Source: Crossiella sp. CA-258035 (GTDB taxonomy: Bacteria > Actinomycetota > Actinomycetes > Mycobacteriales > Pseudonocardiaceae). Taken from it: 64,000 nt of DNA. Position numbers and translations under genes: made by a program. The notes beneath the pieces are model-generated. The model was not told the origin of the DNA. It saw only the letters and a list, made by a program, of their open reading frames with translations, and ran no database searches. Location of the stretch: positions 715,001 through 779,000 of the forward strand of contig NZ_CP116413.1 of assembly GCF_030064675.1 (NCBI RefSeq), in the 5' to 3' direction. Positions 15,223 to 57,809 of the stretch are shown here, piece by piece (the stretch's first letter is position 1; each line of letters begins with the position of its first letter).

Positions 15223-15597
15223 TCAGCCCAGGCAGACCTTGCGCACGTTGTCCAGGTTCTTGACCGTCTGCTTGGCCCAGTCGGCCAGGTTGACCACGCC
15301 GTCCACCTTCTCCTTGGCCAGCGAGGTGTAGTGGTCGGCCACCGTGGTCAGCGCGCCCTTGACGTCGGCCTCGGCCACGTTCTTGGTCAGGTCGATCAGC
15401 CGGTCGGCCTTCTCCTTGGCCTCGTTCCTGGTCTGCTGCGGGTCCGCCGGGTTCGGTTGCAGCGAGGCCAGGCTGATCGCCTCGGTGCAGACCTTGGCCT
15501 TGTCCGCGAACGCGCTCGCCTGCTGGCAGGCGCCGAGCAGGGCGATCGCGGGCACCGCGGTGAGCAGGAGCAGAGCCAGCCGAGGTGACCTGCGCAT
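15223..15597 (-). CDS. Small putative lipoprotein
   Basis: A 124-residue protein with a hydrophobic N-terminus and lipobox ALLGAC (Cys24). The mature part is a charged, helical domain rich in Lys, Asp and Ala with one further cysteine near the end (RKVCLG) that could pair with the one in KVCTEA. ATG at 15597 is chosen because GGAGGGG lies six bases upstream; an upstream in-frame ATG at 15618 has no such site. No family recognised. Probably anchored on the outer membrane leaflet face. Confidence 0.75.
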   Translation of the reverse strand: MRRSPRLALLLLTAVPAIALLGACQQASAFADKAKVCTEAISLASLQPNPADPQQTRNEAKEKADRLIDLTKNVAEADVKGALTTVADHYTSLAKEKVDGVVNLADWAKQTVKNLDNVRKVCLG

Positions 15598-35046: not shown

Positions 35047-35505
35047 CCCCTGAGTTGGAGGGATGTCGCGCCCAACGGCGCGGTTGGAATGTTCTGCAGA
35101 AGAGCGGACAGTCGACGAGACCATCTGTCCTGCAAGTGCAGCCAACGCTGGCGTACGAGGGACTAGCTGCACACCTATCCACTCCCTTCTTGTGTGTCCC
35201 CTCCTGCACGACCAGTGCGAACCTGAGCCAGCCTCCCCTGTCGCCGTGGGGGCGCTGGTGCAGACCGAATAGGTCTCAGGGCTGAACGCCTAGGTGTGTC
35301 GCCACACAGTTCGGCGCTCAACGCGGTTCGCATACCTCATGCCAAACGGACGGCAACGGCTAGCGGCGTCAGTCCGCGCGGCCGAGATGCGGATGGTCCG
35401 ACATCGAGCTCGAAGCACCTATCTCCGAGATGTACTTGCTAGACTCGAAGATCGTTGCTACGATCTCGTTGTTGCAGTCGAACAACCTCGAGAGGTCCGG
35501 GTATC
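35047..35505. other. 459-bp junction region without a confident gene
   Basis: Base composition falls from the >70% GC of the TetR gene toward the lower GC of the following unit. Short frames are present (35294-35509; and a 40-residue stretch at about 35398-35528 reading SDIELEAPISEMYLLDSKIV), but neither has a convincing start. The latter looks protein-like and ends just inside the next gene, so a decayed or frameshifted N-terminal region is possible. Confidence 0.5.
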
Positions 35506-35991
35506 GTGAGAGATCGGCAGACCTGTGAGCGAGAGGGCCGGATCCGTGACTACTATGCTGCGACACTCGATCAGCACAGGCGCGGTGAGTTGCTCGTCGC
35601 TCGAGAGAATAGTTTCGACGGCACGGCAGTGCGGGCGGATATGCGAACGATTGATCGCCACAATGTCATTCGTCTGTGGGAGTTCAAGATTCGCGCCAGT
35701 TACGACGCTCTCGGTCAAATAATCGTTTATGTTTCGATGGCGCGTCGTGCGGAAGGCTACAATCGGCAGATCCGTGGTGTAATCGCTGCATTTGAATTTC
35801 AATCTGAGATAGTTGACGCTATTGAGAGGATGAACTTAGGTATCGAACTAGTCTCGCTGCCGCCGGTGCTTGCTTTCGCTGGCAATGTCCCCGACGGTAT
35901 AGAAAAAATCACGATTCCTGAAATTCCCGACATGTCTGCATTTATTGGTTTTGATGCTGCCGACGACAGTCAAGCGGAGGATCAACTATGA
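35506..35991 (+). CDS. Putative PD-(D/E)XK-type nuclease-like protein
   Basis: A 161-residue protein with a motif set like small PD-(D/E)XK nucleases: RADMRTID (Asp45), LWEFKIRA (Glu59-x-Lys61), then DALGQIIVYV with Gln71, the common helix after the active site. It could cut DNA, but this is motif-based inference. GTG at 35506 is used (AGAGG upstream); the frame opens at 35455. It overlaps the following DndB-like gene in ATGA, so they act together. Lower GC than the chromosome suggests transfer. Confidence 0.55.
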   Translation: MRDRQTCEREGRIRDYYAATLDQHRRGELLVARENSFDGTAVRADMRTIDRHNVIRLWEFKIRASYDALGQIIVYVSMARRAEGYNRQIRGVIAAFEFQSEIVDAIERMNLGIELVSLPPVLAFAGNVPDGIEKITIPEIPDMSAFIGFDAADDSQAEDQL

Positions 35992-37499
35992 GTACCCCGT
36001 TCATCGCCCAGAAGCAATTGATCAGCACCTCTGATATCCCTGAGGATCCGGCTTTCGGTGGACTGCGCATTGTCAGGATCGGTTCGGATGAAGAGGCGCG
36101 CGCCAACATTGAGAACCGCCGATACCGTTTCCAGCACGAACTCGAAAAGCGGCACGTCATGCGCGGCATGCTGTGCCTGAAGGGGGCTGAGCCTCACTAC
36201 CGTATATGCGTCTCGCTCCATCCGAGCTTGGGTCAATTTACCGATATCGTGCGGTACAATCCTTCTGACCCTCCGCGCGCGGTTGACTACGAGGCCATAG
36301 GAATGAGGGCAGCACACGAGAAGACCCAAAGCGATTTCAAAGGTGCCAAGGCTACTAACCGGGCCGACTTCAAGCGCTACATCCTCGAGGCTATTCACGG
36401 TGAGCGAGTTGCTTACCTGCCGACCGTCACGGGGTGGCAGTCTGTCGAGGAGTTTGAGGAAGACCCCCAGCCAATCTTCGTTGTCTTCGATGAAGTGAAC
36501 TCGGCGGTCCTTTACGGAGAGTTTTACCTGCCTAAAAGGCCAGTTATGCAGGCAGACGGGCAGACCCAGACGGCCGCACTGTTCGAGGCGGCCCAGAGTG
36601 GTGTCGCGCTGAAGAGTGGTGCTCTCAATACATTTTTTGTGACCCTCGAGATTGAGCTCAAAGTAGATGTTGATGCGGCCGCTCAAAGCTTCGCGGACCG
36701 AAATGGACGCGGTACCAAGAAGAACGCTAATTTGGTGGCTACTTACGACACCTCGTCCGCGCTCTCTCGGCTGCGTAATAGTGCCATCAAGGGGACGATC
36801 TTTGAAGGCCGTGTCGCGGACGGACGCAGCACTGGTGCGACGCTGACCGCCGTCCAGAATATCGTAGATGCTTCTACGCTTGAGCAAATGCTTCTGAACG
36901 TGATCTCACACGGAAACCGTAAACGCGAGCACTTGAAACATCACCATATCCCGTTCGTTCTGCCGTACTGCCGCGAATTCCTCCAGATGCTGGAGCACCA
37001 GTTTGGTGCAGCTTGGAGTGATACCACTCAGCCTGACACCTATCGGCGGCTGTATGTCCACGGTTGGGCCTTTGCTCTCAAGGCGCTTGCGCTGGCCTAC
37101 AACCAGGCGCGCCGTGAAAAGCTCGGCCCGATCATGGAGGTGATGTTGCAAGAAAAGACAACCGATCATGATACGGTCGATGACCTTGAAAAAAGATTTT
37201 CCGACGCCCTAGTCAAACTCGAATCAGAGGCGCTAACTCCGAAAGTTTCGCTTGAGCAGCTCAAGCAGCGTCTGGCTGAGATTGATTGGAGGCGGGACCG
37301 TAGACACTGGATCCAGATCACTGGTTTCTTGCAGGACAAGAACGGCACAAAAAAGACAGTTAAGCTCAAGACAACCGGTGAGCAGGTAGTCGCTGCGGCC
37401 GCGTCAAATACGCCGGCCCATATCAGCCAGGTCGAAAACAAGATTCTTTCAGAAAACTGGCGAGACCTCACCAAGCATGAATCCGAACCAATCGAATGA
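35988..37499 (+). CDS. DndB / DGQHR-domain-like protein
   Basis: A 503-residue protein with the layout of the DGQHR/DndB family: a degenerate DGQTQ signature at 190-194 (classical DGQHR has His-Arg), followed by the FADRNGRGTKKN block at 235-246 and ATYDTSSALSRL, both characteristic. Classical DndB regulates phosphorothioate modification with DndACDE, none of which is here. Partnered by ATGA overlap with a nuclease-like protein, it may be part of a DNA-recognition or restriction system. ATG at 35988 has GGAGG upstream. Lower GC than the flanks. Confidence 0.72.
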   Translation: MSTPFIAQKQLISTSDIPEDPAFGGLRIVRIGSDEEARANIENRRYRFQHELEKRHVMRGMLCLKGAEPHYRICVSLHPSLGQFTDIVRYNPSDPPRAVDYEAIGMRAAHEKTQSDFKGAKATNRADFKRYILEAIHGERVAYLPTVTGWQSVEEFEEDPQPIFVVFDEVNSAVLYGEFYLPKRPVMQADGQTQTAALFEAAQSGVALKSGALNTFFVTLEIELKVDVDAAAQSFADRNGRGTKKNANLVATYDTSSALSRLRNSAIKGTIFEGRVADGRSTGATLTAVQNIVDASTLEQMLLNVISHGNRKREHLKHHHIPFVLPYCREFLQMLEHQFGAAWSDTTQPDTYRRLYVHGWAFALKALALAYNQARREKLGPIMEVMLQEKTTDHDTVDDLEKRFSDALVKLESEALTPKVSLEQLKQRLAEIDWRRDRRHWIQITGFLQDKNGTKKTVKLKTTGEQVVAAAASNTPAHISQVENKILSENWRDLTKHESEPIE

Positions 37500-37623: not shown

Positions 37624-37683
37624 CTATTCACACGGCCCGTGCGGTTGATGTCACACCATCAAGCCTATGGGCCGTGTGAATAG
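37624..37683. other. Long hairpin beside the tRNA fragment (tRNA terminator or cruciform)
   Basis: A perfect 15-bp inverted repeat (37624-37638 with 37669-37683) encloses a second shorter stem (TTGATG 37645-37650 with CATCAA 37657-37662). It begins four bases past the CCA end of the tRNA fragment on the minus strand, where a tRNA gene's terminator would be. Confidence 0.7.
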
Positions 37684-37686
37684 TGC

Positions 37687-37714
37687 TGGTGTCCGAGGGG
37701 GGACTCGATCCCCT
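37687..37714 (-). other. 3' end of a tRNA gene: candidate attachment-site core
   Basis: Read on the minus strand this is a T-arm (GGGG stem, loop ATCGAGT, CCCC), acceptor strand CTCGGAC, discriminator A and CCA. No matching 5' acceptor strand (GTCCGAG), D-arm or anticodon arm lies upstream (higher coordinates), so it is only the 3' part. Such fragments mark one junction of elements that integrate into tRNA genes. Loop position 54 is A rather than T, so the copy may have decayed. Confidence 0.6.
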
Positions 37715-37807
37715 TTCCGTCGCATCCCTGCTACATCTGACGTATGCGTGCTTGAGCGCGCTTGAACCCTCCGACCCGACGCCTCCGCGCAGGTCAGGCT
37801 GCCGCCC

Positions 37808-38305
37808 GTGGCGGTGGTCGTCGTGACCGGCACGGTGATCGCGCCTCTTGTCCCTCCGAGCACCCCGTCCCGGCCCAGCACCCGCGCCGGCAGTTCGACC
37901 TCCTGCCTGGCACCGGGCAGCGGCACTCTGCCGTTGGCGAACGGTCCGATCGCGCGCACTACCTGCGCGGTGTACGGGCTCTCCGCGCTGGACCACCACG
38001 GACGGATCACCGATCTCGTCGTCCTGCGAGCACTCGGTTGGGCACCAGCAACACGACTGCGCGTACGGCACCTCGGCGATGTGCTGATCATCGAACCCAA
38101 CGCCGAGGGCACCTTCAGCGTGACCGCTCAAAACCACCTCCGGTTGCCAGCCGCCGCGCGCCACCGCCACGGGCTGGCCACCGGCAACCGGGTCTTGCTG
38201 GTCGCCGATCAGGCAGGCGGGCATCTGCTCGTGTGCCCGCCCGCGGTGCTGGACGACTTGTTCGCCGACCTGTTCGCTGCCGCTCTTGGCGGTGATCACC
38301 GATGA
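37808..38305 (+). CDS. AbrB/MazE/SpoVT-like DNA-binding protein
   Basis: A 165-residue protein. The C-terminal half (residues ~100-140) has the swapped-hairpin AbrB-like element FSVTAQNHLRLPAAARHRHG followed by GLATGNRVLLVAD. The N-terminal half shares the GRITDxxxLRALGW block with the paralogue at 45161-45643. It is the first gene of an operon with a DUF2637-like protein and an integrase (ATGA overlaps), and probably regulates integrase or transfer expression. GTG at 37808 has no clear ribosome site; the N-terminus is uncertain. Confidence 0.7.
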   Translation: MAVVVVTGTVIAPLVPPSTPSRPSTRAGSSTSCLAPGSGTLPLANGPIARTTCAVYGLSALDHHGRITDLVVLRALGWAPATRLRVRHLGDVLIIEPNAEGTFSVTAQNHLRLPAAARHRHGLATGNRVLLVADQAGGHLLVCPPAVLDDLFADLFAAALGGDHR

Positions 38306-39222
38306 ACACCGAAGACCAGCTCCTCCGCGATGCCCACGAGGCCAGCCGGATCCGAGCACACCAGACCCACCCGGACGTGATCGCGCTCCAGGTCGAACGT
38401 ATCCGACGGCAGGTCGACCGGCTCATGTGGACCGGCATCGTGCTCGGGCTGGCCTTCACCATGGCCAACGTCGCGCACTTCGCCGCCCACGGCGCCCCAC
38501 GGTTCTCCCTGCCCTGGTTCACCGCCTGGCTGTTGGACCCCATGGTCAGCCTGGTGCTGATCGCGATCCTACGCGCCGAGCAGGTCACCGCCCAGTACCA
38601 ACTCCGGACCGGGCCGTGGGTGCGCCGGGCGAAGTGGGCGATGCTGGCCGCGACCTACGCCATGAACACCTGGTCGGCCTGGGCCAGCGGGGACGGCAAG
38701 GCGGTGCTGCTGCACTCGGTGCCTCCGCTGGTGATCTTCCTGGCAGCCGAGGCGATCACCGACTTGCGGGACAAGCTCACGACCGCGGTCACCCGCGCCT
38801 GCAGCACCCCCGCCTCCCAGCCGAACACCCCGTTCACCGCCGCCGAGTCCAGGTCGGTGAACGCCAACACCGCCGTGGCCGCGAACTCCACGGGGACCGT
38901 TCATGAACAGCCCGCTGTCGGCGTTCATGAACGCCGCGCAGGTGTGAACCGCAACGCCGACAAGGCCACTGGCCGTGGCGGCCGCCGGGTGAGCTTCGCG
39001 GAGTACCTGGCTCGCGCGCAGCAGACGCGCACCGCCGACACCGTGGTCACCCCGGCCTGGGTGCGGCATGTGACCGGTTGCTCGCGCGGCCTGTCCTCGC
39101 AGCTGGCTGCGGCCATGAACGCCGACACCGGGCCGTCGGTGAACGTCGCCACCGTGTTCACGGGCGACGAGCCGGCCAGCACGCCCGTGAACGGCGCCTC
39201 TCACCTGGTGGTGACGCCATGA
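38302..39222 (+). CDS. DUF2637-like membrane protein (plasmid spread/regulatory)
   Basis: A 306-residue protein with four predicted membrane helices in residues 40-160 and a hydrophilic C-terminal half containing a possible HTH near VTPAWVRHVTGCSRGLSSQLAAA. Similar membrane-HTH proteins (DUF2637) are found in actinobacterial plasmids and integrative elements, often as Spd-like spread genes. ATG at 38302 overlaps the AbrB-like stop, and the TGA overlaps the integrase start. The role in mycelial spread or regulation is by analogy. Confidence 0.65.
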   Translation: MNTEDQLLRDAHEASRIRAHQTHPDVIALQVERIRRQVDRLMWTGIVLGLAFTMANVAHFAAHGAPRFSLPWFTAWLLDPMVSLVLIAILRAEQVTAQYQLRTGPWVRRAKWAMLAATYAMNTWSAWASGDGKAVLLHSVPPLVIFLAAEAITDLRDKLTTAVTRACSTPASQPNTPFTAAESRSVNANTAVAANSTGTVHEQPAVGVHERRAGVNRNADKATGRGGRRVSFAEYLARAQQTRTADTVVTPAWVRHVTGCSRGLSSQLAAAMNADTGPSVNVATVFTGDEPASTPVNGASHLVVTP

Positions 39223-40247
39223 CCACGGTCGTACCTGGCACGCCGAGTGCCGTCGAGCTGGAGGCCGCGCGGCTGCTGCTGGAACGCCTGGGCGTCACAC
39301 CGGAGGACCTACTCGCCGTGCCGCAGCAGCGGCCGCCGGTGCCGACCTTCGCCGAGTACATCCCGGAAGTGGTGGAGGCGGTCAGCAAGGGCACCCGCCG
39401 CGTGTACGGAAGCTACTGGAACCGCATCCGCGCCAACTGGGGCGATCGCCATCTCGATGAACCCACTGCCTCGGAGGTGAAGCAGCTCGCTGAGCACGTC
39501 CAGGCCACTGCCAAGGTCCGGCGCAACGGCCGTGGTGGTCGTGGAGCCGCCGAGCACTTCATCGCCGCCCTGCGCTGCCTGTACAAGCACGCCGAGAACG
39601 ACCAGCTGATCACCGAGGCCCACAACCCGGCGCGCAAGGTCGACAAACCCCGCCGCCTGCCCTCTACCCGGTGCGCGATCCCCAGCAACGGCCTGGCCGA
39701 GATCAACCACGTCGTCGCCACCACCGGCAACGACCCGGAGCTGGACACCCTGATCCTGAGGCTGCACACCGAAACAGCCTGCCGCCGCGGCGGTGCGCTC
39801 GCGTTGCGCCCCAAGGATCTCGACCCCAAACAGTGCCTGATCCTGTTGCGGGAGAAAGGAGGCACGGCCCGATGGCAGCCGGTCTCCCCAACCCTCATGC
39901 GCGGCCTGCTCCGCCACGCGAAGGAACGCGGCGCCGGAGCTGACGATCAGCTTCTCCGCTACCGCGACGGCAGACCCATCACCACCCGCCGCTACGACCA
40001 CCTCTGGAGCCGGATCGGCAAACATCTGCAGTGGGTCGCGGCCCAGCAGCTGTCCACGCATTGGTTGCGCCACACCACCTTGACCTGGGTCGAGCGCAAC
40101 TTCGGCTACGGCATCGCCCGCGCCTTCGCCGGCCACAACGACCAGAGCGGCGACCCGGGCACCACCACGACCTATATCCGGGCCAACCTCCAGGAGATCG
40201 CCAAGGCGCTCGCCGCGCTTACCGGAGAACCCCACCCGCTGGCGTGA
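39219..40247 (+). CDS. Tyrosine recombinase / integrase 1
   Basis: A 342-residue phage-integrase-family recombinase. An N-terminal SAM-like core-binding domain (residues ~45-140) precedes the catalytic domain, with Arg in ETACRRGGAL (~189), HWLRHT (His ~281, Arg ~284) and the Tyr nucleophile in TTTTYIRAN (~319). It is the third gene of the AbrB-like/DUF2637-like operon. It is closely similar to integrase 2 at 44154-45164, including a 42-bp identical DNA block. It lies about 1.5 kb from the tRNA fragment and is a good candidate for excision/integration there. A 14-bp hairpin follows. Confidence 0.94.
   Translation: MTTVVPGTPSAVELEAARLLLERLGVTPEDLLAVPQQRPPVPTFAEYIPEVVEAVSKGTRRVYGSYWNRIRANWGDRHLDEPTASEVKQLAEHVQATAKVRRNGRGGRGAAEHFIAALRCLYKHAENDQLITEAHNPARKVDKPRRLPSTRCAIPSNGLAEINHVVATTGNDPELDTLILRLHTETACRRGGALALRPKDLDPKQCLILLREKGGTARWQPVSPTLMRGLLRHAKERGAGADDQLLRYRDGRPITTRRYDHLWSRIGKHLQWVAAQQLSTHWLRHTTLTWVERNFGYGIARAFAGHNDQSGDPGTTTTYIRANLQEIAKALAALTGEPHPLA
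40095..40136 (+). repeat. 42-bp exact inverted repeat, copy 1 (in integrase 1)
   Basis: This block, coding from RNFGYGIARAFAGH, is identical on the opposite strand at 44274-44315 in integrase 2. The two copies enclose 4.1 kb carrying three cargo genes. Identity over 42 bases indicates recent common origin or gene conversion and offers a site for inversion by homologous recombination. Confidence 0.9.
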
Positions 40248-40302
40248 GCATCGGCTGAGGCCTGGCGGCTGGCACGGCCAGCCGAGAGCGTCAGTAGCTG
40301 AC

Positions 40303-40338
40303 GAGAGGCCCACCTGATTTCCACCAGGTGGGCCTCTC
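40303..40338 (+). terminator. Hairpin after integrase 1
   Basis: A perfect 14-bp stem (40303-40316 with 40325-40338) and an 8-base loop, 55 bases after the integrase 1 stop. It probably ends the AbrB-like/DUF2637/integrase operon and insulates the cargo genes. Confidence 0.85.
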
Positions 40339-40461
40339 TCCGGCTATGCTGGGGGGTGGACTGGCTCGGCGGTCGCGCCGCGGGGCTACCGAACTCACTC
40401 GTCACGCCCAAGCCCCGCGCCACAGGGGCTGTTCGGCGACCGCACAGTTCGGGAGATTCCG

Positions 40462-41388
40462 TTGACCAGCTACAGCATTCTGCCCACCGGGCCCCGCTAC
40501 ACCGTTTTGGCCACCTGGCCCGGCGAACCGGCCGACACCAGCACCAAGGTCACCACCCTCAACGACAGCAAGTTGGCCGAGCAGCTGGCGCCGACGCTGA
40601 CACAGCTGTCGGAGGACGCGTGGGATGCCGCGGCCTGGCTGGACACCTCGCCGTCCCTGGAGACGGCGATCTCCCAGGTGATCGAACAGCTGCGCAGCCC
40701 AGCGGAGTCGATGAGTCCGATAGACCTGACCGCCGAACCCGCTGCTCGGCATGGCGATCAGTGGAGCTTCTTCGACGCCAAGGACCTGCTGGCCCATGAG
40801 CTGCCCGAGATCATGAACGCGATGACCCGGCCCCAGCGCCTGACCATCGCCGACGAGCTCGCCACCGACGCGGCCGCCCGAGCCGAGGCGCTCCAGCTTC
40901 TCCCCACCGGGCTTGATCCCGACGATCCGGCATCACGCATCTGGCAGATGTGCGAGGTGACCCGCTCCGAACGCAACGGCCAGACCGGCCCGCTGCCCGA
41001 AGGTGCCGCGGGCTGGCTCGTGCGCAGCTGGGGACCGTACCTGGTGTCCCCGGCCATGCGGTGGGGCGCGCGTGACCGACTGGTGCGGATCGAGCAGCTC
41101 GCGGCCGCTTGCCTGGCCCACGGAGGAGTGGGAGATGTTGAAGATGACCCGCTGCAGGCTCGTCTTGTGATGCCGCGCCCTCCGGGCAACATTGATGCCG
41201 AGGCCTACTACGTGACGGTGCACGAGGGCCGATTCAACTCGTGGGACACCGACCCGTTCCACCCGATGACCGTCAGCCGCAAAGCTTCTGGGGAGACGCA
41301 GATCCTCGGCAAACTCGATGCCACCGACGACGACGGCTTTGCCGAGCTACTCGGAGAGTGGACGCGGATGGTCCCGTTCAATCGATGA
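40462..41388 (+). CDS. Protein of unknown function (cargo gene 1)
   Basis: A 308-residue soluble protein, acidic, with no recognised family. The N-terminus (SYSILPTGPRYTVLATWPG) and C-terminus (KLDATDDDGFAELLGEWTRMV) look beta-rich, while the centre is helical. Start at TTG 40462 with GGGAG six bases upstream. It is the first gene after the integrase 1 terminator and precedes the Hsp70-like gene by 187 bp. There is no membrane segment or signal peptide. Confidence 0.75.
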   Translation: MTSYSILPTGPRYTVLATWPGEPADTSTKVTTLNDSKLAEQLAPTLTQLSEDAWDAAAWLDTSPSLETAISQVIEQLRSPAESMSPIDLTAEPAARHGDQWSFFDAKDLLAHELPEIMNAMTRPQRLTIADELATDAAARAEALQLLPTGLDPDDPASRIWQMCEVTRSERNGQTGPLPEGAAGWLVRSWGPYLVSPAMRWGARDRLVRIEQLAAACLAHGGVGDVEDDPLQARLVMPRPPGNIDAEAYYVTVHEGRFNSWDTDPFHPMTVSRKASGETQILGKLDATDDDGFAELLGEWTRMVPFNR

Positions 41389-41575
41389 TCAGCAGGGGCA
41401 GCCGGCTGCGGCGCGTTGAAGGCATAGGATAACGCGGTGTAGTTGCTCAAGATCATCACACCTGGTCAAGCTAACTTGCTGACACCATCGAATTACATCG
41501 CCAACGCAAAGTGGAAGTGCACCTCGGCGTCGGACTAGACGTATCGCATCCCCTCCCCATCTCAGGACGGATGCT

Positions 41576-43327
41576 GTGAGTCACCCTGAAACGCACTTAG
41601 TCAACGCTTCCCTCGACTTCGGAACCCATGCCACCGGCTACGGCTGGTGCGAGCACGGCGTCGACGATCCGGCGTTGCGGAAGATCCGCACGTTCGACCA
41701 GTGGCCGAACCAACCGGTTCCGTCGGTCAAGACGTTGACCGCACTTCTGCTCGACCGTGACGGCGATGTGATCGCGTGGGGCCACGACGCGCTGCGCAGG
41801 TGGAACGAGCACCGGGCCGACCGCCGCGACAAGGGCTGGCGCTACCACCACGGTTTCAAAATGCATCTAGCCAAGGATGCGCCCAGATTGCGCACGTCCT
41901 GGGCCGCGTATGACGAATCGGAGGAACCGGTCGAGAACTTGATCACCAAGTTCTTGCGATGCATGCTCCGACACGTGCTGGCTGATCTTGCCGCCAGCGG
42001 ATACCAGGAGTCAGATATCCGTTGGTGCATCACGGTTCCGGCCATCTGGAACGACCATCAGAAGGTCGTGATGCGCAAGTGCGCCGAGCGTGCGGGATTC
42101 CCTACGGAGGACGGCCGCCTGATCCTGGCTTACGAGCCCGAGGCCGCCGCACAGCACGCTCGGGTCAGCAACATCATGATCACCGACAGCCTCGGAGGAG
42201 CTAGGGACGTTCTCACTGCACCCGGCCGTCGCGTCGTTGTCGCGGACTGCGGTGGTGGCACCGCTGACATGACCTCGTTTCAGGTGGAGCCGGATGGCAG
42301 CCTGGTCGAGGTCGGCCGGGTTTCGGGTGACGCCCGCGGGTCGCACTACGTGAACGAAGCGTTGCTGAAGAACGTGCTTGTGCCACGGCTGGGTGGTGAG
42401 AAGTTGTACAAGAAGCTGGTCGAGCAGTGTCCGGAAGGAGTTGAGGATCTGCTCGCGGCCTGGGAGCGGGCCAAGCTGAACGTCGTGGTGGACCAGGCGC
42501 GTCCCGTCTACCTACCCATCCCGTTCGGGCTGGCGAAGAAGATGCCGCCTCGCGTTAAACGCGCCTTGGCCGAGGCACAAGATGGCAACGACACCAACAT
42601 CGTCGTCACGGTGGAGGAAATCAAGGCTGCCTTCGAGACGGTCGTCCATCGGATCTGCGAACTCGTCTCCGAGCAGGTCGACATGGTGGAGGCCGATGCA
42701 GGCGAGGGTGGCGGTCCAGTCGTTGTCCTACTCGTCGGCGGATTCGCTGCATCCGAGTACCTTCGGAGACGACTGATCGATCACATCAAGGATCTGGCGA
42801 TCGTCGTCGTACCTCCCGATCCTCAGGTGGCAGTGCTCTCCGGCGCCGTGCACTTCGCTTGCCGGCCGGACATCCGGGCGCGCCGGGCACGCCGAACCTA
42901 TGGGATCGCCATGCGGTGTGATTTTGAGGAGGGCATCGACGACGAGGCCAGGCGGTGCCCGCCCGAACCTGGAGAGGACCACGCGGACAAATGTGTCGAT
43001 CGATTCGTGGCTCTCGTCGAGAAGGGAACACTCGTACCCACCGACGCGGAAGTCTGGCAGGACGGATATCCGATCAAGGGTGATCAGACAGAGGTGGCGG
43101 TCGAATTCTACGGTGCCGACGACGGCTTGCCGCGCAACGTGGATGACCCGAACTGTAAATATCTAGGTAAGGTGCTGATCAAACTTGGGAAAGCGATGCG
43201 GTTGAGCATGAAAGGGCGAGCCATCCGCGTGCTCATGAAGTTTGGCGAGACAGAGATCAAGGTCCGGGTCGTCGTCCTGGCGACCGGAGTCGAACTCCCT
43301 TACACGCTAGAGTTGGCCGCTTCGTGA
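41576..43327 (+). CDS. HSPA12-like Hsp70-family ATPase
   Basis: A 583-residue actin-fold ATPase. The phosphate 1 motif ASLDFGTHATGYG is near residues 11-23, the connect/phosphate 2 motif VVVADCGGGTADMTSF is at about 219-234, and the adenosine motif VVVLLVGGFAASEYLRRRL is near 380. The layout resembles eukaryotic HSPA12A/B and their bacterial relatives rather than DnaK; a canonical substrate-binding domain and C-terminal lid are absent. GTG start at 41576. Its last bases overlap the GTG of the coiled-coil partner, so they are cotranslated. GC is lower than in neighbouring transfer genes. Confidence 0.88.
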   Translation: MSHPETHLVNASLDFGTHATGYGWCEHGVDDPALRKIRTFDQWPNQPVPSVKTLTALLLDRDGDVIAWGHDALRRWNEHRADRRDKGWRYHHGFKMHLAKDAPRLRTSWAAYDESEEPVENLITKFLRCMLRHVLADLAASGYQESDIRWCITVPAIWNDHQKVVMRKCAERAGFPTEDGRLILAYEPEAAAQHARVSNIMITDSLGGARDVLTAPGRRVVVADCGGGTADMTSFQVEPDGSLVEVGRVSGDARGSHYVNEALLKNVLVPRLGGEKLYKKLVEQCPEGVEDLLAAWERAKLNVVVDQARPVYLPIPFGLAKKMPPRVKRALAEAQDGNDTNIVVTVEEIKAAFETVVHRICELVSEQVDMVEADAGEGGGPVVVLLVGGFAASEYLRRRLIDHIKDLAIVVVPPDPQVAVLSGAVHFACRPDIRARRARRTYGIAMRCDFEEGIDDEARRCPPEPGEDHADKCVDRFVALVEKGTLVPTDAEVWQDGYPIKGDQTEVAVEFYGADDGLPRNVDDPNCKYLGKVLIKLGKAMRLSMKGRAIRVLMKFGETEIKVRVVVLATGVELPYTLELAAS

Positions 43328-44043
43328 CTTGGGCTGGCGTGCCGAAAGGTGAGCCGACAGCCGTGTTCTCAGGCCAGGATTCGGGCGTCACCCCCGTGTG
43401 TGTACGGTGCCGTGGCGAGGGTCTGTCCAATCTGCTGGCTGAACTATTGGAGCTGAAGGCGGAGAATGTCCGCCTTGCCAAAAATCTCGAAGACACCTTG
43501 AAAGTAAACCGGCGGCTTCGTGATCGGCTGTCGCTCAGCGCATCGCGTCACGCTCAAGCGGGAGACAGGGGTGCTACGTTGAAAAGCTCGACGCACTCTG
43601 TGCTCGCGGATCGCTACCAAGACCTCATTGCTCAAGACGTCTACCATCTCCTTCTTGAACATCTAGGCGTTTCTGTTGTGCGCGACGCTCCGATACGCCT
43701 GGCGCGGGAAATAAGCACGATGTGTCGCTATCTCTTCATCGACGGAAGTCGGGAGGCGGGTCTGATGTGTGGCAAAATGGGAATGGATCCCGCTCGCTTC
43801 CTGGTCCCGATGAGGGATATTGCCGAAAAGGTCACAGAACTCCGTGCTCAAGCGCACGGCGTCGAATGGAGTTTTGAAGCCGTATCCGGACGCCTGCTGA
43901 GTCCTGACATCCAGCAGCCGTGGGGGCAATGCGATCCACGGGTCGAAGTGGAGTTCGTGGTCATGCCTGGATATCGGGCAGACGGCCGGGTTTACGCGAA
44001 ACAGCAGGTATTTACAAAACAGCGATATTGGCAGTCCTTGTAG
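43324..44043 (+). CDS. Coiled-coil protein partnered with the Hsp70-like ATPase
   Basis: A 239-residue protein of unknown family. A CVRCRGEG segment (possible half zinc knuckle) near residue 26 is followed by a coiled coil at about 35-75 (LLAELLELKAENVRLAKNL, leucine heptads). After a linker comes a mostly helical C-terminal domain with DVYHLLLEHLGVSVVRDAPIRL and a final beta-like part. GTG at 43324 overlaps the Hsp70 stop (GTGA), which indicates a functional pair. It may be a co-chaperone, adaptor or effector; none of these is proven. Confidence 0.72.
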   Translation: MTWAGVPKGEPTAVFSGQDSGVTPVCVRCRGEGLSNLLAELLELKAENVRLAKNLEDTLKVNRRLRDRLSLSASRHAQAGDRGATLKSSTHSVLADRYQDLIAQDVYHLLLEHLGVSVVRDAPIRLAREISTMCRYLFIDGSREAGLMCGKMGMDPARFLVPMRDIAEKVTELRAQAHGVEWSFEAVSGRLLSPDIQQPWGQCDPRVEVEFVVMPGYRADGRVYAKQQVFTKQRYWQSL

Positions 44044-44153
44044 AATTGGCTAATGTGGCGATGGTGGCTGATTTCTTGTTGCTACACACCACGATCACCT
44101 GCTGTCGGGACACCCATGGCAAACGTGGAGAGCTTGCGCGTCAGCAGCCGGTC

Positions 44154-45164
44154 CTACCCAGGCGGCTGGGCGAGGGGGTGGGGTTCTCCGGTGAGGGCGG
44201 CCAGCGCGGTGGCGACTTCGTGGAGTTCGGCTTGGATGTAGGTCGTGGTGGTGCCGGCGTCGCTCTTGCCGAAGTGGCCGGCGAAGGCGCGGGCGATGCC
44301 GTAGCCGAAGTTGCGTTCCACGTACGTGAGCGTGGTGTGGCGGATCCAGTGGGTGGTGACCTGCTGGGTGGCGACCCAGGGCAGGTGCTTGCCCATGCGA
44401 AGCCAGAAGTGGTCGTAGCGGCGGGTGGTGATCGGCTTGCCGTTGCGGTAGCGGAGAAGCTGGCCATCCGGATCGGCGCCGCGCTGCTGACCGTGGGCGA
44501 CCAAGGTGTCCATCATGGTCGGGGACACCGGTTGCCAGCGGACGGTCAATCCCTTCTCCCGTAAGCGGATCAGGCACTGCTGCGGGTCGAGGTCCTTCGG
44601 ACGTAGAGCCAGGGCGCCCCCGCGGCGGCAGGCGGTTTCGGTGTGCAGGCGCAGCACGGTCAGGTCCAGCTCGGGGTCGTTGCCGGTGGAGCCGGCAGTC
44701 TTGTTGATCTCGGCGAGCCGGTCCGCGGGCAGCGCGCGGCGGGTGCTGGCCAGCCGCCGGGGCTTGGCCACGCGCATGGCGGGGTTGTCCCACTCGCGGA
44801 TGAGGCCGTCATTCACGGCGTGCCGGTACAGGCAGCGGGCCGCAGAGACCAGGTGCTCGGCCGCACTGCGCCCGCCGCGGGAGTTCTTGCGCACCACCGC
44901 CTCATGTCTGGTGTGCTCGGCGAGCTGCTTGAGCTCCAGCGCGGTCAGCTGATCCAGCGGCCGCTCGCCCCAGGCCTCGGCGATCCGCCGCCAGTACGGT
45001 CCGTAGGCCTCGCGGGTGCTGGGGGAGACGGCGTTGGCGACGCGGGCCAAGTAGTCGCGGATGAGCGGCATCGGGGTGTCCGTGGTGGGCGCGGCCAGCA
45101 GTTGTTCCGGGCTGACGCCGAGCCGGGCCAGGAGCAGTCGGGCCGCTTCGATCTCCGCGCTCAC
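44154..45164 (-). CDS. Tyrosine recombinase / integrase 2 (inverted paralogue)
   Basis: A 336-residue integrase with the same domain order as integrase 1: Arg in ETACRRGGAL, HWIRHT and Tyr in TTTTYIQAE. Large blocks are identical in protein (e.g. TETACRRGGALALRPKDLDP). It is opposite in direction to integrase 1. GTG at 45164 overlaps the stop of the second AbrB-like gene, repeating the operon order of the first module without the DUF2637-like gene. Confidence 0.94.
   Translation of the reverse strand: MSAEIEAARLLLARLGVSPEQLLAAPTTDTPMPLIRDYLARVANAVSPSTREAYGPYWRRIAEAWGERPLDQLTALELKQLAEHTRHEAVVRKNSRGGRSAAEHLVSAARCLYRHAVNDGLIREWDNPAMRVAKPRRLASTRRALPADRLAEINKTAGSTGNDPELDLTVLRLHTETACRRGGALALRPKDLDPQQCLIRLREKGLTVRWQPVSPTMMDTLVAHGQQRGADPDGQLLRYRNGKPITTRRYDHFWLRMGKHLPWVATQQVTTHWIRHTTLTYVERNFGYGIARAFAGHFGKSDAGTTTTYIQAELHEVATALAALTGEPHPLAQPPG
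44274..44315 (-). repeat. 42-bp exact inverted repeat, copy 2 (in integrase 2)
   Basis: Reverse complement of 40095-40136 without mismatch. See copy 1. A second shared block in both integrases codes for ITTRRYDH and is nearly identical over about 24 bases. Confidence 0.9.
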
Positions 45165-45643
45165 CGCTGGGCCACCGGCGGTGGGCCGCCGTGGTTGGCG
45201 GCCAGGATCGAGCTGACCGCGGCCGGGGTGTAGGCCACGAGCAGGCCGTGTCCGGTCAGCGCCACGACGAGCAGGCGGTCACCGGTGGCCAGTCCGCACT
45301 GGTGCCGCACGGAGGCGGGCAACCGCAGGTGGCCTTGGCGGGTCAGGGTGTGCGCGCCGCGGCGGCCGGTCACGACAATCACCGCCGCGTCGGTCACCGA
45401 GATCGAGATTGAGCGCCCGGGTTCCCAGCCGAGTGCGCGCAGCGGCGATCGGTCGGCCAGCCGCCCGCGCTGGTCGATGGGCGTGACGAGGTAGAGCAGC
45501 GCGCCGACGCGGGTGCGGGTATTGACCGGCGCCACGGGCAATCCGCTGCGCAGTGGCCGCCTGGCCGAGGACGGCGAGTTCACCGCCGCGGCCAGCACCC
45601 TGGGCAAGTCGGCCTGGCTGTCGCGGCGCAGCTCCGAGGTCAT
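45161..45643 (-). CDS. AbrB/MazE/SpoVT-like DNA-binding protein (paralogue)
   Basis: A 160-residue protein with the AbrB-like LTRQGHLRLPASVRHQCGLATGDRLLVVAL element at about residues 105-135 and the shared DRSPLRALGWEPG block. It is related to the product of 37808-38305, and like it lies directly upstream of an integrase. ATG at 45643. It may auto-regulate its integrase module; possible cross-talk between the two modules is inference. Confidence 0.72.
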   Translation of the reverse strand: MTSELRRDSQADLPRVLAAAVNSPSSARRPLRSGLPVAPVNTRTRVGALLYLVTPIDQRGRLADRSPLRALGWEPGRSISISVTDAAVIVVTGRRGAHTLTRQGHLRLPASVRHQCGLATGDRLLVVALTGHGLLVAYTPAAVSSILAANHGGPPPVAQR

Positions 45644-45767
45644 GGCCCACCCGCCGGGCCGGGCCAACAGGCGACGTGGCAGCCGCGCCTGCCTACACCT
45701 GCGGGCAGGTTGCACGGGGCAGCAGCCCGTACGCGGGGCACGGCTGCGCGCCAGCCGGGGTGGGCGC

Positions 45768-46679
45768 TCACGCAGCCCACCCCGCGGTCCGGTCCAACCA
45801 CGCGGTGCGCCTGCGCTGAGTCAACGCGGCACCGAACACCGGTAGGCCCGCCGGGACGGCGACCTTGAGGAGGTTGTCCGGCACCTCCGGCACGGTGAAG
45901 ATCACTACGTCTCGGTGGGCGGTCAGCGCGATCGGTGTCCCGGCCGCCTGAGCTCGGTGGGCGGCGTCGCGTTCGGCTAACCCGGCGCCGGTGTACACCT
46001 GCTGGCCGCGGACCCGGGCGGTCAGGGCGACACCGCGGCCGATCGGCCGGAGCCCGGCCGCCTGCCCGAGACGCAGCACCGAGGAGGTCAAGTCGAGCAG
46101 CCTGCCCGCGGATCGGGTGGGCTTGATGACCACCACGGCGTACCCGCCTGGCCGAAGAAGGAGCAACGACCACGCCAGCGCACCGGCGAGCATCCGGAAG
46201 GCGTTATCCGAAGCGGACTCGCCTGGCGGGTCTCCGGCTGGTGTGCCCGGGTGGCATCCGCGGAGGCTGGTCAGCATCAGGTCGACCTGGCCCGCCAGGC
46301 TCGCCGCCTCCGCCACCTCCAGCAGGTCGAGGTCACCCAGCAACACGGTGCCGGGGCGTGGGGCGCCGTTGCGGCGTGCCGTGCCGATGTTGAGGCGGGC
46401 CACGCGCCGCCAGCGCGGGTCAGTAGTCAATCCGATCGCTCGCCGGCTGGCGTAGAGGGCTTCGGTCACCACGGTGCCCGCGCCGCAGGCGGGGTCCAAG
46501 ACGAGATCGCCAGGACGGGTGAAGGTGGCGATGGCGTGTGCGGCGATCTTGGGCGGCACCTGGTCGCGGTCGAACTGGGTGGCCGGGTTGTAGCCGCCGC
46601 GCCGGTGTTGCGTGGCGATCGAGTGCTGGCCGGTCCACCACACCGGCGAGATCCCCGGCCCCGAGGAGGGCGCTGTCAT
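45768..46679 (-). CDS. DNA methyltransferase-like protein lacking the catalytic motif
   Basis: A 303-residue protein with the SAM-binding motif LVLDPACGAGTVVTEAL (about 60-75) and an N-terminal YNPATQFDRDQVPPKIAAHAI segment typical of beta-class N4/N6 DNA methyltransferases. The expected (S/D/N)PP(Y/W) catalytic motif is replaced by TSLRGCHPG at about residue 136, so activity is doubtful. ATG at 46679 overlaps the stop of the upstream paralogue. It may bind SAM or DNA as a regulator, or modify another substrate. Confidence 0.65.
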   Translation of the reverse strand: MTAPSSGPGISPVWWTGQHSIATQHRRGGYNPATQFDRDQVPPKIAAHAIATFTRPGDLVLDPACGAGTVVTEALYASRRAIGLTTDPRWRRVARLNIGTARRNGAPRPGTVLLGDLDLLEVAEAASLAGQVDLMLTSLRGCHPGTPAGDPPGESASDNAFRMLAGALAWSLLLLRPGGYAVVVIKPTRSAGRLLDLTSSVLRLGQAAGLRPIGRGVALTARVRGQQVYTGAGLAERDAAHRAQAAGTPIALTAHRDVVIFTVPEVPDNLLKVAVPAGLPVFGAALTQRRRTAWLDRTAGWAA

Positions 46680-47587
46680 CGGAGGTCTCCCGGTCGCGCC
46701 GTAGTGGTGGCCGAGGTCGGAGCGGTGCTGAAGATCAGCAGATCGGCGAAGGAGGACGCCCCATCAGCGGCATCCTCGGCAGGATCGCCACCGGGGTTCC
46801 TGGCGCTCGTGCGGAGCAGCGCGAGGTGATCGAGATAGTCGAGGCCGGACTCCGCAGTGGCGCGGACCACCGCCCGAGTCGGATCGTGGAACCCCCCGGA
46901 GATGTGGTCACTGTGGGTGATAACGGCGAGGACGCCGCCCTCGGCAAGGCGGCTTGCCCAGCGCCGCAGTCCACGGTGATCCCCGGCAGCCGGGGAGACG
47001 GCGGTGATGATCAGCTCGAACACATCCGGCCGCGGCAGGACTCCCGCGGTCGCAGGCCGGGCCGACGCGCCGTCGTGCTGACCGTGGGCGTCGGCCCCAG
47101 CGACCGGGACGGCGGGCCAGCTTCCGGCCAACCCCGCACTCGATTCACCGTCAGGCGGATGGGATGTGAGGCCGGGTTCGTCGTGTGTCCGGACGGTCCG
47201 GCCGAGCCGGAAGACGGCCCAGCAGGCATCCAGCAGGTGGTCGTACTCCTGGCCCGTGGGCACCACGGGGAGGCCGATCGGACCGGTGCTCGCCGGTGGT
47301 CTGCCGGTGCGCGGCGGCGCGAGCAGAAGCACCCGGTGGCCGGGGCGGGTGTAGGTGGTGACGATCTTGACGACCATGGTCAGCAACCAGTCGCCTGGAC
47401 CGGTGCCCGGGGTGGAGTTGGGGGCAGGCCACACCGTGGCGAGGCGCGCGGTCGACGAGTCGGGCGCGCGCCGAAACAGGGGGCGCCGGAGTTGTTCTTG
47501 GTGGCGGAGTTCGCCGAGTTGACCAGGCGACGTGCCGACGCCGATGGCATCGATGGAGGACAAGCCGGGACTGCGGTGTGAATCCAT
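46676..47587 (-). CDS. Degenerate methyltransferase-like paralogue
   Basis: A 303-residue protein, the same length as the next gene's product and alignable with it by eye. IVTTYTRPGHRVLLLAPPRTG corresponds to the motif I region (AIATFTRPGDLVLDPACGAG), but the acidic and glycine residues for SAM are lost. LAEGGVLAVITHSDHISGGF corresponds to LRPGGYAVVVIKPTRSAG. It is probably a non-catalytic partner. ATG at 47587 has GGAG seven bases upstream; a longer frame to 47797 is less likely. Confidence 0.6.
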   Translation of the reverse strand: MDSHRSPGLSSIDAIGVGTSPGQLGELRHQEQLRRPLFRRAPDSSTARLATVWPAPNSTPGTGPGDWLLTMVVKIVTTYTRPGHRVLLLAPPRTGRPPASTGPIGLPVVPTGQEYDHLLDACWAVFRLGRTVRTHDEPGLTSHPPDGESSAGLAGSWPAVPVAGADAHGQHDGASARPATAGVLPRPDVFELIITAVSPAAGDHRGLRRWASRLAEGGVLAVITHSDHISGGFHDPTRAVVRATAESGLDYLDHLALLRTSARNPGGDPAEDAADGASSFADLLIFSTAPTSATTTARPGDLR

Positions 47588-47830
47588 GAAGGGCTCCACG
47601 GGAGGTAGGGCGTACTGCTGGATGCCCCTTAACTCCGATTCTGCTCCCGCTATTGGACACCAAGCCGCGCATTCCTTCCATGGGAGTCGGCAGGCCGCAA
47701 TGACGCCTTCGGTGTAGTTCGGCTGGCAGCGGTTCCCGGTGGCGACTGAGTCCGTCGAAAAGCTCTCTGGAAGATCTTTTCGATGAGGTGGAGACACGTC
47801 TTGCCGGTAGGCGAAGCCGCGTTCTCCTCG

Positions 47831-48071: not shown

Positions 48072-48998
48072 ATGGCACACCAGTTCAACACTCGCCGACC
48101 CAGCGGCGACCCCTATCCGGACAATGCGCTCGACGTCGCGCGTGGGGCTTTCCGCTGGCTGGTCACCGGACCTCGTCCGGTCTCGATCAACGGCCGGTTG
48201 TTTCCCGGTCTCCCGGATCGCCGGCTGCCCCTGGATGAGCTGCGGGACCGGCTGCTGGAGCGTCGTTGCCGACCGGCCACCCGGGATGCGGTCTGGGCGC
48301 ACCTGGTCCTGCGCGCCCGGACCGAGGGCGCGACCTGGACGGTGGCCGCGGTCGGGGTCGCGCTGCCCGCGTTGACCTCGGTCACCGCCCAGCTGACCGA
48401 CCGCTTCGCCGCCGACCCGGCCGACATCGCCGCCGAGGTGCTGCGCGGGTTCCTTGCCGCGCTGACCACGATCGATCTCCGGCGACCGAAGATCATGCTG
48501 CGGCTGCGGTGGGCGGCCTTCCGGGCCGGACACGCCGCGCTCGCCGAGGCTCTCGCCGCCCCGACCCCGGTGCCCTCGGGGTTCTTCTCCCAGGCGCCGC
48601 ACCCTCCGTGGGGACACCCCGACCTGGTCCTGGCGCGGGCGGTAGAGGAAGGGGTGCTGACCCGCACCGAGGCCGCGGTGATCGGGTCGACCCGGCTGGA
48701 GGAGATGCCGATTGCCGACTGGGCGGCCCAGCACCGGATCAAGCTGTGGGCGGCCTACAAGATGCGCCAGCGCGCCGAACACCGCCTGCGCGCCCACCTC
48801 TGCGAGGACGGCGCAGCCGCCCCGGTCCCCGCCCGCACACCGCGGCCCAAGCAGTCGCCCTCGGTAACCGGCACGGCGCGGCGGTCCGGTCGCAAAGTCC
48901 GAGGCGGGATGTCCAAGACCGGCCCGGATTGCGGAGTTCAGGAGTGCGAGACCACTCGGCCCGCACCGGACCGCTCGGAGGTGCCCCCATGTGCCTGA
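48072..48998 (+). CDS. Sigma-factor-like / HTH regulatory protein of the transfer operon
   Basis: A 308-residue soluble protein. The middle (residues ~85-170) is helical, with LLERRCRPATRDAVWAHLVL and VLRGFLAALTTIDLRRPK segments resembling sigma region 2. The later segment GVLTRTEAAVIGSTRLEEMP followed by WAAYKMRQRAEHRLRAHL resembles a region 4 HTH. It ends in a basic, disordered tail. Resemblance is weak, so it is a candidate regulator only. Its end overlaps the pilin gene by 10 bp, making it the first gene of the rightward transfer operon. Confidence 0.55.
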   Translation: MAHQFNTRRPSGDPYPDNALDVARGAFRWLVTGPRPVSINGRLFPGLPDRRLPLDELRDRLLERRCRPATRDAVWAHLVLRARTEGATWTVAAVGVALPALTSVTAQLTDRFAADPADIAAEVLRGFLAALTTIDLRRPKIMLRLRWAAFRAGHAALAEALAAPTPVPSGFFSQAPHPPWGHPDLVLARAVEEGVLTRTEAAVIGSTRLEEMPIADWAAQHRIKLWAAYKMRQRAEHRLRAHLCEDGAAAPVPARTPRPKQSPSVTGTARRSGRKVRGGMSKTGPDCGVQECETTRPAPDRSEVPPCA

Positions 48999-49489
48999 CC
49001 CCGCCACGCGCCACTCGGCGCTCGCGCCCGGCGGCCCGGCCGTGTCCGCGCACCGGCGCCTCCAGCACCACCGCAACCGCGGCCCACGACCCCGCCCCTC
49101 TCCGCAGTCATCGGAGCAATGAGTACCGCGGGGGTCGAATCCGCGCCCTGGGCCGTGGGCTTTGTCGCGGCCTTCTGTTGCTGGCCTTGACCACCGTGAC
49201 GGTGCTGGGTGCGGGCTCGGCGGTGCAGGCCGCACCGGCTGAGGTGCTGGCTCTGGCCAAGTCGCTGGATGAGGTGCTGAGCAACCTCCAGCTGTGGCTG
49301 CTGGGCATCTTCGCCGGGCTGGCCACGCTGTTCCTGATCGTCGGCGGCGGCCGCTGCATCGTCTCCGGGGGAGACCCCGGCGAGTACGCCAAGGGCAAGC
49401 TGGCGATGAAGTGCGCGGGCCTGGGCTACGTGGTGGCCCTGGTCGCACCGCTGGTCGTGGAAGTCCTCAAGAAGATCGTCGGGGCCTGA
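48989..49489 (+). CDS. VirB2/TrbC-like pilin
   Basis: A 166-residue small membrane protein. A basic N-terminal region is followed by a signal-like hydrophobic segment ending in AVQAAPAEV (about residue 85), then two membrane helices (LWLLGIFAGLATLFLIVGGG and LGYVVALVAPLVVEVL), the usual pilin layout. ATG at 48989 has GGAGG eight bases upstream. It is followed directly by the VirB6-like gene. It probably forms the transfer channel or pseudo-pilus across the membrane. Confidence 0.7.
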   Translation: MCLTPPRATRRSRPAARPCPRTGASSTTATAAHDPAPLRSHRSNEYRGGRIRALGRGLCRGLLLLALTTVTVLGAGSAVQAAPAEVLALAKSLDEVLSNLQLWLLGIFAGLATLFLIVGGGRCIVSGGDPGEYAKGKLAMKCAGLGYVVALVAPLVVEVLKKIVGA

Positions 49490-49491
49490 CC

Positions 49492-54340: not shown

Positions 54341-54387
54341 CCCTCGGACCTGCCTGCCCAGCACCCGATTGCACCTAGAGGACACCT

Positions 54388-55230: not shown

Positions 55231-55287
55231 ACACCACGCCCATCCCGCAGCCCGCCGCAGTGCCGGCCGCCGACGTCGGGAGGTTCC

Positions 55288-57777: not shown

Positions 57778-57809
57778 GCACCGAACACCGAACACCGAAA
57801 GGACCATTG

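Follow-up and report, generated by a model that had tools for sequence, protein, structure and literature searches.

A probable exchangeable cargo slot between two facing integrases in an 87-kb integrative and conjugative element of Crossiella

We describe here a segment of the chromosome of the soil bacterium Crossiella sp. CA-258035 in which two tyrosine integrase genes face each other across three cargo genes. It lies within a stretch of 64,000 nucleotides (contig NZ_CP116413.1, positions 715,001 to 779,000 of a host genome of 9.17 Mb in a single contig) that we refer to as the window and whose numbering is used unless noted. We read the segment, with a probability of roughly 70%, as the exchangeable cargo slot of a family of two-integrase integrative and conjugative elements (ICEs), represented here by an 87-kb element at the 3' end of a tRNA-Leu(GAG) gene. 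The element runs from an attachment core through an AbrB-like gene (AbrB1), a gene for a 306-residue protein, integrase 1, the cargo, the reversed integrase 2, a second AbrB-like gene (AbrB2), a DNA methylase gene, conjugation genes and others to the tRNA-Leu.

The left end of the element is marked by a 17-bp core (attL, 37689-37705, minus strand), a copy of the tRNA-Leu(GAG) 3' end that was found with an exact 16-base pattern and has its partner at 124763 (genome position 839763). A palindromic arm, GTCGCA-N4-TGCTAC, lies beside it (37719-37734, plus strand; position checked), and on the chromosomal side is an inverted repeat predicted to form a hairpin (37624-37683), with a 79% match to sequence downstream of an intact tRNA-Leu on contig C48 of G310, a genome of the same species. 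AbrB/MazE-like gene 1 (37808-38305, plus strand; Pfam MazE_antitoxin 2.5e-4, below the cut-off) has homologues in AbrB2 and in the AbrB genes at related loci; it is followed by the gene for a predicted and possibly membrane-spanning protein of 306 residues (38302-39222, plus strand), conserved in Crossiella elements, and by integrase 1 (39222-40247, plus strand; Pfam Phage_integrase 2.6e-11), which is of the attachment-site-proximal type. Integrase 2, of the internal type, is encoded on the other strand (44154-45164, minus strand; Phage_integrase 1.5e-8) with its catalytic-set residues intact, and is preceded by AbrB/MazE-like gene 2 (45161-45715, minus strand; a weak domain match), homologues of which adjoin integrase 2 in related loci. 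Two copies of the integrase subfamily were found in this genome, the third match being 24% identical, and the residues R, K, H, R, H and Y, which we take to be the tyrosine integrase catalytic set, are invariant across 20 aligned integrase sequences.

An initial annotation of this DNA had described two paralogous modules, each with an AbrB-like gene directly upstream of an integrase, that enclose three genes and share a 42-bp exact inverted repeat. Most of this description stands. The integrases are full-length facing paralogues, 72% identical in a DNA alignment of 1,001 nt; the 42 bp at 40095-40136 (plus strand) match the reverse complement of 44274-44315 exactly; an AbrB/MazE-like gene lies upstream of each integrase, although both domain matches are weak and below the Pfam cut-off; and three open reading frames (ORFs) lie between the integrases, namely C1, which matched no family, a remote Hsp70/actin-like gene and a gene for a small protein. 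Direct adjacency of the AbrB-like gene holds for module 2, but in module 1 the 306-residue gene intervenes, and the segment, though real, was drawn too narrowly: its limits leave out the attachment core and AbrB gene 1 on the left and the conjugation genes on the right.

Both 17-bp cores of the element were located, 87,074 bp apart, the second copy lying inside an intact tRNA-Leu(GAG). The exact core pattern occurs in the genome at 752689 (window 37689), 839763, 3556112 and 4574484, with no match for a reversed control, and the copies at 839763 and 4574484 sit in intact tRNA-Leu(GAG) genes; ARAGORN found no tRNA inside the 64-kb window. The conjugation block (48072-58838, plus strand) includes a VirB4/TraG-like ATPase gene (51242-54340; P-loop_TraG 1.7e-17), a GP88 family gene (54388-55230), a gene for a TrwB/TraD-like coupling protein (55288-57777; TrwB_AAD_bind 5.3e-10) and a predicted relaxase-like gene of the Replic_Relax family (57774-58838; 1.1e-47), all on the plus strand. 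The element thus has the components by which we recognize an ICE: an integrase with intact catalytic residues, direct-repeat cores with an intact tRNA, and a VirB4-type ATPase, a coupling protein and a relaxase-like gene. Of the features of an AICE, the actinomycete class with a TraB/FtsK translocase and a Rep protein in place of type IV secretion, FtsK_SpoIIIE gave a match of just 0.027 beside the type IV ATPases; 10 further genes were scanned in the rest of the element. To the left of the conjugation block are an N6/N4 DNA-methylase-like gene (45768-46679, minus strand; Pfam N6_N4_Mtase 7.3e-8), with relatives beside integrase 2 in nine of 20 facing pairs including this one, and an element gene without an assigned role (46676-47797, minus strand) that has relatives in some other elements. 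The core at 3556112 (L221, G000:C1:3556112) is an orphan accompanied by an element end arm, with no tRNA found beside it, and is likely a remnant of another element.

The corresponding tRNA-Leu in the G310 chromosome is unoccupied by the element, and there the right flank is homologous (97% over 8.3 kb) from the core's first base onwards. On the left the chromosomes are 94-96% identical up to window position 35047, after which G310 has about 2.7 kb of other DNA before its tRNA. Between that point and the core the window carries, at 35455-37499, a low-G+C DndB-like gene (55% compared with 70% for the window) and a small ORF, and because G310 has different genes in this place the variability of the tRNA-Leu side extends beyond the element. 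G310 has a related element of its own at another tRNA-Leu (contig C23, cores 92039 and 164416, 72,377 bp), and a further genome, G002, has two stacked elements of 62,953 and 54,537 bp (cores 6314845, 6377798 and 6432335). In the window and in the right G002 element the tRNA is distant from the AbrB1 end, whereas in G310 it adjoins that end; in the left G002 element the AbrB1 end is on the tRNA side, beside the shared core. The internal order counted from AbrB1 is identical in all four as far as mapped. Of 52 distinct outer-side sequences, 37 have a palindromic arm of this kind beside the core, with 7.7 expected from shuffling. We also note that the two G002 elements (L217 and L216, G002:C1:6377798 and 6314845) have opposite polarities and share one core head to head, and that the far G002 core is followed by the start of an arm resembling one from a third element. 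The Crossiella and G310 elements share 93% identity over a 7.9-kb stretch (L189, G000:C1:775001-795000; 72076-80000 on the window scale) in which a gene for a T2SSE-type secretion ATPase lies, but 65-76% in their conjugation and integrase regions, which indicates that the elements are mosaic.

Facing integrases recur. A collection of 150 relatives, 75 named loci and further regions yielded 132 integrase matches and, once two duplicate loci were removed, 20 convergent pairs. The sample is not random, since loci L085-L159 were gathered by similarity to the integrase alignment; the relatives' search (150 genomes) and a family search (390 genomes, five candidates scored in each) kept best matches only. 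A tRNA-Leu(GAG) lies close, upstream of exactly one partner, in 12 of the 20 non-redundant pairs, and a core lies upstream of exactly one partner, integrase 1, in 16; no pair has a core beside both, and four (L046, L113, L142 and L148) have none beside either, three of these with little sequence on one or both sides. Among full-length integrases, all 12 paired tRNA-proximal copies have an upstream core and none of 11 distal copies does (one of these with less than 1.2 kb of searchable sequence), although the proximal score is partly a matter of definition because the core is the tRNA end. The corresponding counts are 25 of 28 for proximal integrases without a convergent partner, four of 12 for integrases in pairs without a nearby tRNA and nine of 48 for the remainder. 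Between the two integrases no core was found in any of the 20 pairs at up to three mismatches; one pair has a match at four and seven at five, where chance matches are likely.

These distributions bear on the interpretation of the segment as a composite mobile cassette, which the initial annotation had proposed. That proposal holds insofar as the DNA is that of a mobile element and the cargo between the modules appears to be replaceable as a unit. A self-mobile version, with everything from one integrase to the other moving as a unit, we regard as very improbable: the layout does resemble that of a composite element, but tyrosine integrases require attachment sites, a core adjoins one partner alone, and on the integrase-2 side the homology runs on into conserved element genes. 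tRNA-type cores around the cargo were likewise rejected by the mismatch-tolerant search.

Two nested elements had been offered as a second explanation. As a description of the present state this fails, because a single pair of cores encloses the entire unit and its order recurs in G002 and G310; as an account of where integrase 2 came from, a fusion is possible. An AbrB-integrase-1 island and an ICE with integrase 2 could have inserted side by side at the tRNA-Leu and fused after the intervening attachment site decayed, and we hold this as a tentative possibility. The two integrase types differ in their distribution in the tree, elements do stack at this tRNA (G002 and C23 of G310 each have three successive cores), and islands with integrase 1 alone exist. 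Against this, the mismatch-tolerant search found no core remnant between the integrases at up to three mismatches, elements of both insertion polarities have an identical fused order, and neighbouring integrases at long range are co-directional rather than convergent. A fusion, if there was one, would be old. Among the matches listed in the family search (134 of 390 genomes with a match, the neighbour cases not being independent), 16 neighbours share a contig and are no more than 10 kb apart, of which 13 are convergent, two tandem and one divergent, whereas 22 of 23 neighbours 10-200 kb apart are co-directional and none is convergent; stacked elements are the best interpretation of the co-directional pairs at long distance. 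Two more widely spaced convergent pairs, about 21 and 24 kb apart, come from the L118 and L114 genomes, and tandem pairs were mapped at L112, L126 and other loci. In four further loci (L122:11096, L135:11213, L138:11212 and L137:6576) the integrases point at a core some 90-210 bp past the end of the match, unlike the facing pairs.

DNA comparisons of related elements support the view that the space between the integrases is a slot. Between the window and the right G002 element, homology (37683-41379, 79%) stops at the C1 stop codon and is seen again from 44145, which is 9 bp past the stop codon of integrase 2; the intervening DNA is unrelated: 2,765 bp in the window (41380-44144), compared with 1,502 bp carrying a TIR/ThsB gene in G002. 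Between G310 and the left G002 element, the homologous stretch breaks off about 20-55 bp short of the integrase-2 stop and resumes about 45-50 bp beyond the integrase-1 stop, and between G017 and L090 it ends 6 bp before the integrase-1 stop and resumes about 26 bp inside integrase 2. In all three cargo-bearing comparisons, unrelated cargo is flanked by homologous DNA on both sides, as in a defence hotspot, with breaks within about 55 bp of stop codons. This pattern is what exchange through conserved flanks would be expected to leave, and site-specific exchange near the gene ends would also be compatible with it.

We propose that integrase 1, as its adjacency to the core suggests, recombines attP with the tRNA-Leu 3' end and so inserts and excises the element. 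A strong hairpin after integrase 1 (40295-40346, plus strand; an inverted repeat, folding z-score -4.5 for the 110 nt after the stop codon) is probably a terminator that ends the integrase-1 transcript, and the region between the two integrase gene ends would for this reason tolerate insertions. Hairpins with z-scores below -2 follow the stop codon in eight of 12 paired proximal integrases, 12 of 27 single proximal ones and three of 11 distal ones. The integrase genes would then mark the edges of a tolerated insertion site, and related elements that share a cell, and can stack at one tRNA, would swap cargo mainly by homologous recombination through the integrase flanks.

A different mechanism would have integrase 2 insert or replace cargo at a site near its own 3' end, in the manner of an integron, with which the arrangement shares a tyrosine recombinase adjoining variable cargo. 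In three comparisons the cargo does start no more than about 55 bp from the stop codon of integrase 2, and empty pairs exist, with 129-291 bp between the matched integrases in seven of 20. We nonetheless consider it unlikely. Integrons differ in that here no cassette-flanking sites were found and the attachment site is at a tRNA; no repeat was found at the borders of the window cargo, although a site of a different kind from the tRNA-type core could be missed; reading by eye, with no motif program run, revealed no motif common to the sequences after the stop codon; the seven empty pairs all lack the methylase; and the NCBIfam archaeal XerA/integron integrase model (NF040815) scored 47.3 and 40.0 bits, far below its cut-off of 220. 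The hairpins after integrase 1 were considered as attC-like sites and rejected, since they differ in sequence and look like terminators. A related and decidedly unlikely arrangement is a platform with divided labour, integrase 1 handling the tRNA site and integrase 2 being dedicated to cargo exchange at the slot in front of it; if true, integrase 2 would serve as a mobile element's built-in exchanger of immune-system cassettes, distinct from integrons.

Returning to homologous exchange as the preferred mechanism, the integrase genes themselves appear to have recombined. In L090 the two copies (9995-11023, plus strand, and 14445-15485, minus strand) are 92-95% alike in four successive 60-nt windows in which integrase 1 is just 72-82% like its L049 orthologue, a tract that likely reflects gene conversion between the inverted copies. 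In G310 six 60-nt windows are closer to the partner integrase than to the integrase-1 orthologue, a weaker signal than in L090; in the element studied here one 60-nt window, at the 42-bp stretch, is 88% like the partner and 80% like the orthologue; and the same comparison gave no such tract in the left G002 element. Outside the tracts the integrases keep their own type. The L090 and G310 tracts suggest that these integrase genes do recombine, and recombination between the two copies, which the initial annotation had also envisaged, is plausible, most clearly in L090.

The 42-bp repeat itself, by contrast, does not stand up as a special feature. The longest exact runs between integrase 1 and integrase 2 within 11 elements are 42, 26, 25, 35, 26, 35, 20, 41, 23, 35 and 26 nt (mean 30.4), compared with a mean of 20.4 nt for 110 cross-element pairs (permutation p 0.00015), but among the latter the top values are 50, 45, 41 and 40 nt, and codon usage common to both copies could explain part of the within-element excess. 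The run is the most highly conserved part of the two integrase genes, lies in their catalytic stretch and looks ordinary beside other pairs; as a recombination site it was rejected, similar runs being present between genera. A further rival is an invertible segment, in which recombination between the inverted integrase genes would flip the cargo. Inverted copies some 1 kb long that share 42 bp exactly, the within-element excess and the conversion-like tracts (L090, more weakly G310, and the single window here) speak for one, but equally long runs join elements of different genera and outside the tracts each integrase keeps its type. No pair of elements has the same cargo in two orientations, though there is almost no shared cargo to compare: a single one of 33 cargo ORFs is shared between elements, so that the cargo is not comparable in two orientations, and that one keeps its orientation. 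Inversion as proposed by the initial annotation is not supported, and we regard it as quite improbable.

Both integrase types are under purifying selection, with ratios of nonsynonymous to synonymous substitution (dN/dS) of 0.17-0.28 for integrase 1 and 0.12-0.23 for integrase 2 in three comparisons each (0.28 for integrase 1 of the window against its G002 orthologue, and 0.23 for integrase 2 of the window). Because it is under such selection integrase 2 is probably used, perhaps jointly with integrase 1. In a tree of 111 sequences the proximal integrases fall across several groups with few distal ones, and most distal integrases fall elsewhere (eight changes compared with a shuffled mean of 10.6, with two of 500 shuffles as low), the distal integrases of L045, L047 and L052 lying among or near proximal groups. 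In this tree the position of the root serves the drawing alone, support is weak at many of the deep forks, and bootstrapping had yet to converge. Independent occurrence of the two integrases, which the initial annotation took as potentially refuting, is found in part: proximal integrases without a convergent partner are common (28 of the 111 tree rows, two of them the L112 tandem pair), yet convergent pairs are also found repeatedly. Broken or fragmentary integrases of the family at L054, L057 and L200, in several genomes, suggest the decay of some islands.

Sequence matches suggest that in related elements the slot cargo often consists of defence or conflict genes. Ten slots hold 33 called cargo ORFs (genes in fetched loci were called with a GC-based ORF picker), among which there is one homologous pair, C1 of the window and L051, in the same orientation; the other cargo ORFs are unrelated. 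L051 carries a ThsB-type TIR gene (Thoeris-type, 2e-81), L096 Gabija GajA and GajB (1e-175 and 5e-106), L113 RmrA (5e-142) with another integrase domain, L185 a caspase gene (2e-7) with EACC1 (Pfam 9e-28), the combination that forms the cargo of the G310 element, L050 a KAP/QatA-like gene (4e-15) with NB-ARC, L123 an OloA-like gene (4e-8) with DUF4238, L090 DUF4062-TPR and nucleotidyltransferase genes (5e-6 each), and L049 genes for a STAND-type NTPase and a DEDDh exonuclease. PADLOC was run on 17 of the 33 ORFs and gave a match at E 1e-5 or better in eight of nine slots scanned, the window slot being the exception. Gene calls in L088 overlap integrase 2 on the opposite strand and are unreliable; the content of this slot of about 1.1 kb is accordingly not assigned, and two doubtful L088 ORFs, which had no match, are excluded from the slot count. 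Cargo G+C content is below that of the adjoining integrase and AbrB flanks in eight of 10 slots. The methylase gene lies beside integrase 2 in the window, L049, L050, L051, L088, L090, L096, L123 and L185, all with 1.1-7.3 kb between the integrases; the spacing in the other 11 pairs is below 300 bp in seven, 0.9-1.2 kb in three and 9.3 kb in one. Defence-like cargo also occurs behind unpaired integrases: L058 (5897-15000) is a tRNA-Leu island with AbrB and integrase genes but no convergent partner, and behind it lie genes resembling a type I restriction set and a gene for a NERD-kinase.

In the window itself, C1 (40462-41388, plus strand) also follows integrase 1 in G002 and G001 and is present in 14 of 390 family genomes; five contexts were mapped, and it occurs in other genomes without an integrase nearby. 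Its structure, predicted alone, has low confidence (mean predicted local distance difference test score, pLDDT, 41). The second gene (41576-43327, plus strand) encodes a remote relative of Hsp70/actin-fold ATPases (Pfam HSP70 0.02, below the cut-off; best solved-structure matches Hsp70s, E about 0.01), with relatives of 39-40% identity in G075 and G056, and the third (43324-44043, plus strand) encodes a partner of 239 residues with a tblastn match (31%, E 6e-9) in L006. At L006:1462-3956, in G056, the two lie side by side, with no integrase 1 match in 4.7 kb, and this recurrence suggests a two-gene system; the 239-residue partner was not found beside the Hsp70-like relative in G075.

Several observations weigh against the cargo-slot interpretation. 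Paired proximal integrases are scattered among single ones without a clade of their own (11 changes compared with a shuffled mean of 11.5), so that pairs were assembled more than once or often lost; integrase-2-type genes also occur without integrase 1 in the 10 kb fetched, and many integrase-1 loci have no integrase 2. PADLOC matched 11 of the 17 scanned ORFs at E 1e-5 or better, just four of them below 1e-50, none of the three cargo genes in the window had a match, and a small control of 10 flanking ORFs from L045, L047 and L049 gave one (9e-8). No recent donor of cargo was found. No excision, transfer or exchange event was observed, and we infer homologous exchange from the break positions and the conversion-like tracts.

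No description of facing integrases with a cargo slot was found in the open-licence literature. Type IV secretion ICEs of Actinobacteria have been called by their TrwC (MOBF) relaxases, and AICEs are described as inserting at tRNA 3' ends, including in tandem at one tRNA (Ghinet et al. 2011, PMC3218068). The Crossiella element resembles the former in its integrase, VirB4-like ATPase and coupling protein, but its relaxase-like gene is of the Replic_Relax family rather than TrwC, and the part of that survey considered here does not describe a facing integrase pair with a cargo slot. Hotspots of genetic variation with anti-phage systems are reported, in the portion of the work drawn on, for P2-like phages and P4-like satellites (PMC9122126), a different class of element; here the flanks are two paralogous integrases. 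A two-gene EACC1-caspase system and Hsp70 in GTPase-centred conflict systems appear in the relevant part of a further study (PMC7159879); the first is the cargo of the G310 element, whereas none of the three cargo genes in the window supplies the Hsp70-like pair with a GTPase or tubulin partner. Defence genes are known from hotspots of mobile elements, mainly enterobacterial or pseudomonad ones among the papers surveyed. Gamma-Mobile-Trio islands also combine a tyrosine recombinase with defence cargo, and probably differ from the present elements in their gene set (the GmtY/X/Z trio) and host group.

What the Crossiella element adds is a searchable slot in actinobacterial ICEs, and it raises the question of why two functional-looking integrases are kept when one alone adjoins the attachment site. 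Cargo with a defence function would benefit both the element and its host. The Hsp70-like pair and C1 are candidate conflict genes without a PADLOC match, and two facing AbrB-linked integrases adjoining tRNA-Leu(GAG) provide a marker for the slot with which undescribed conflict systems could be revealed by position.

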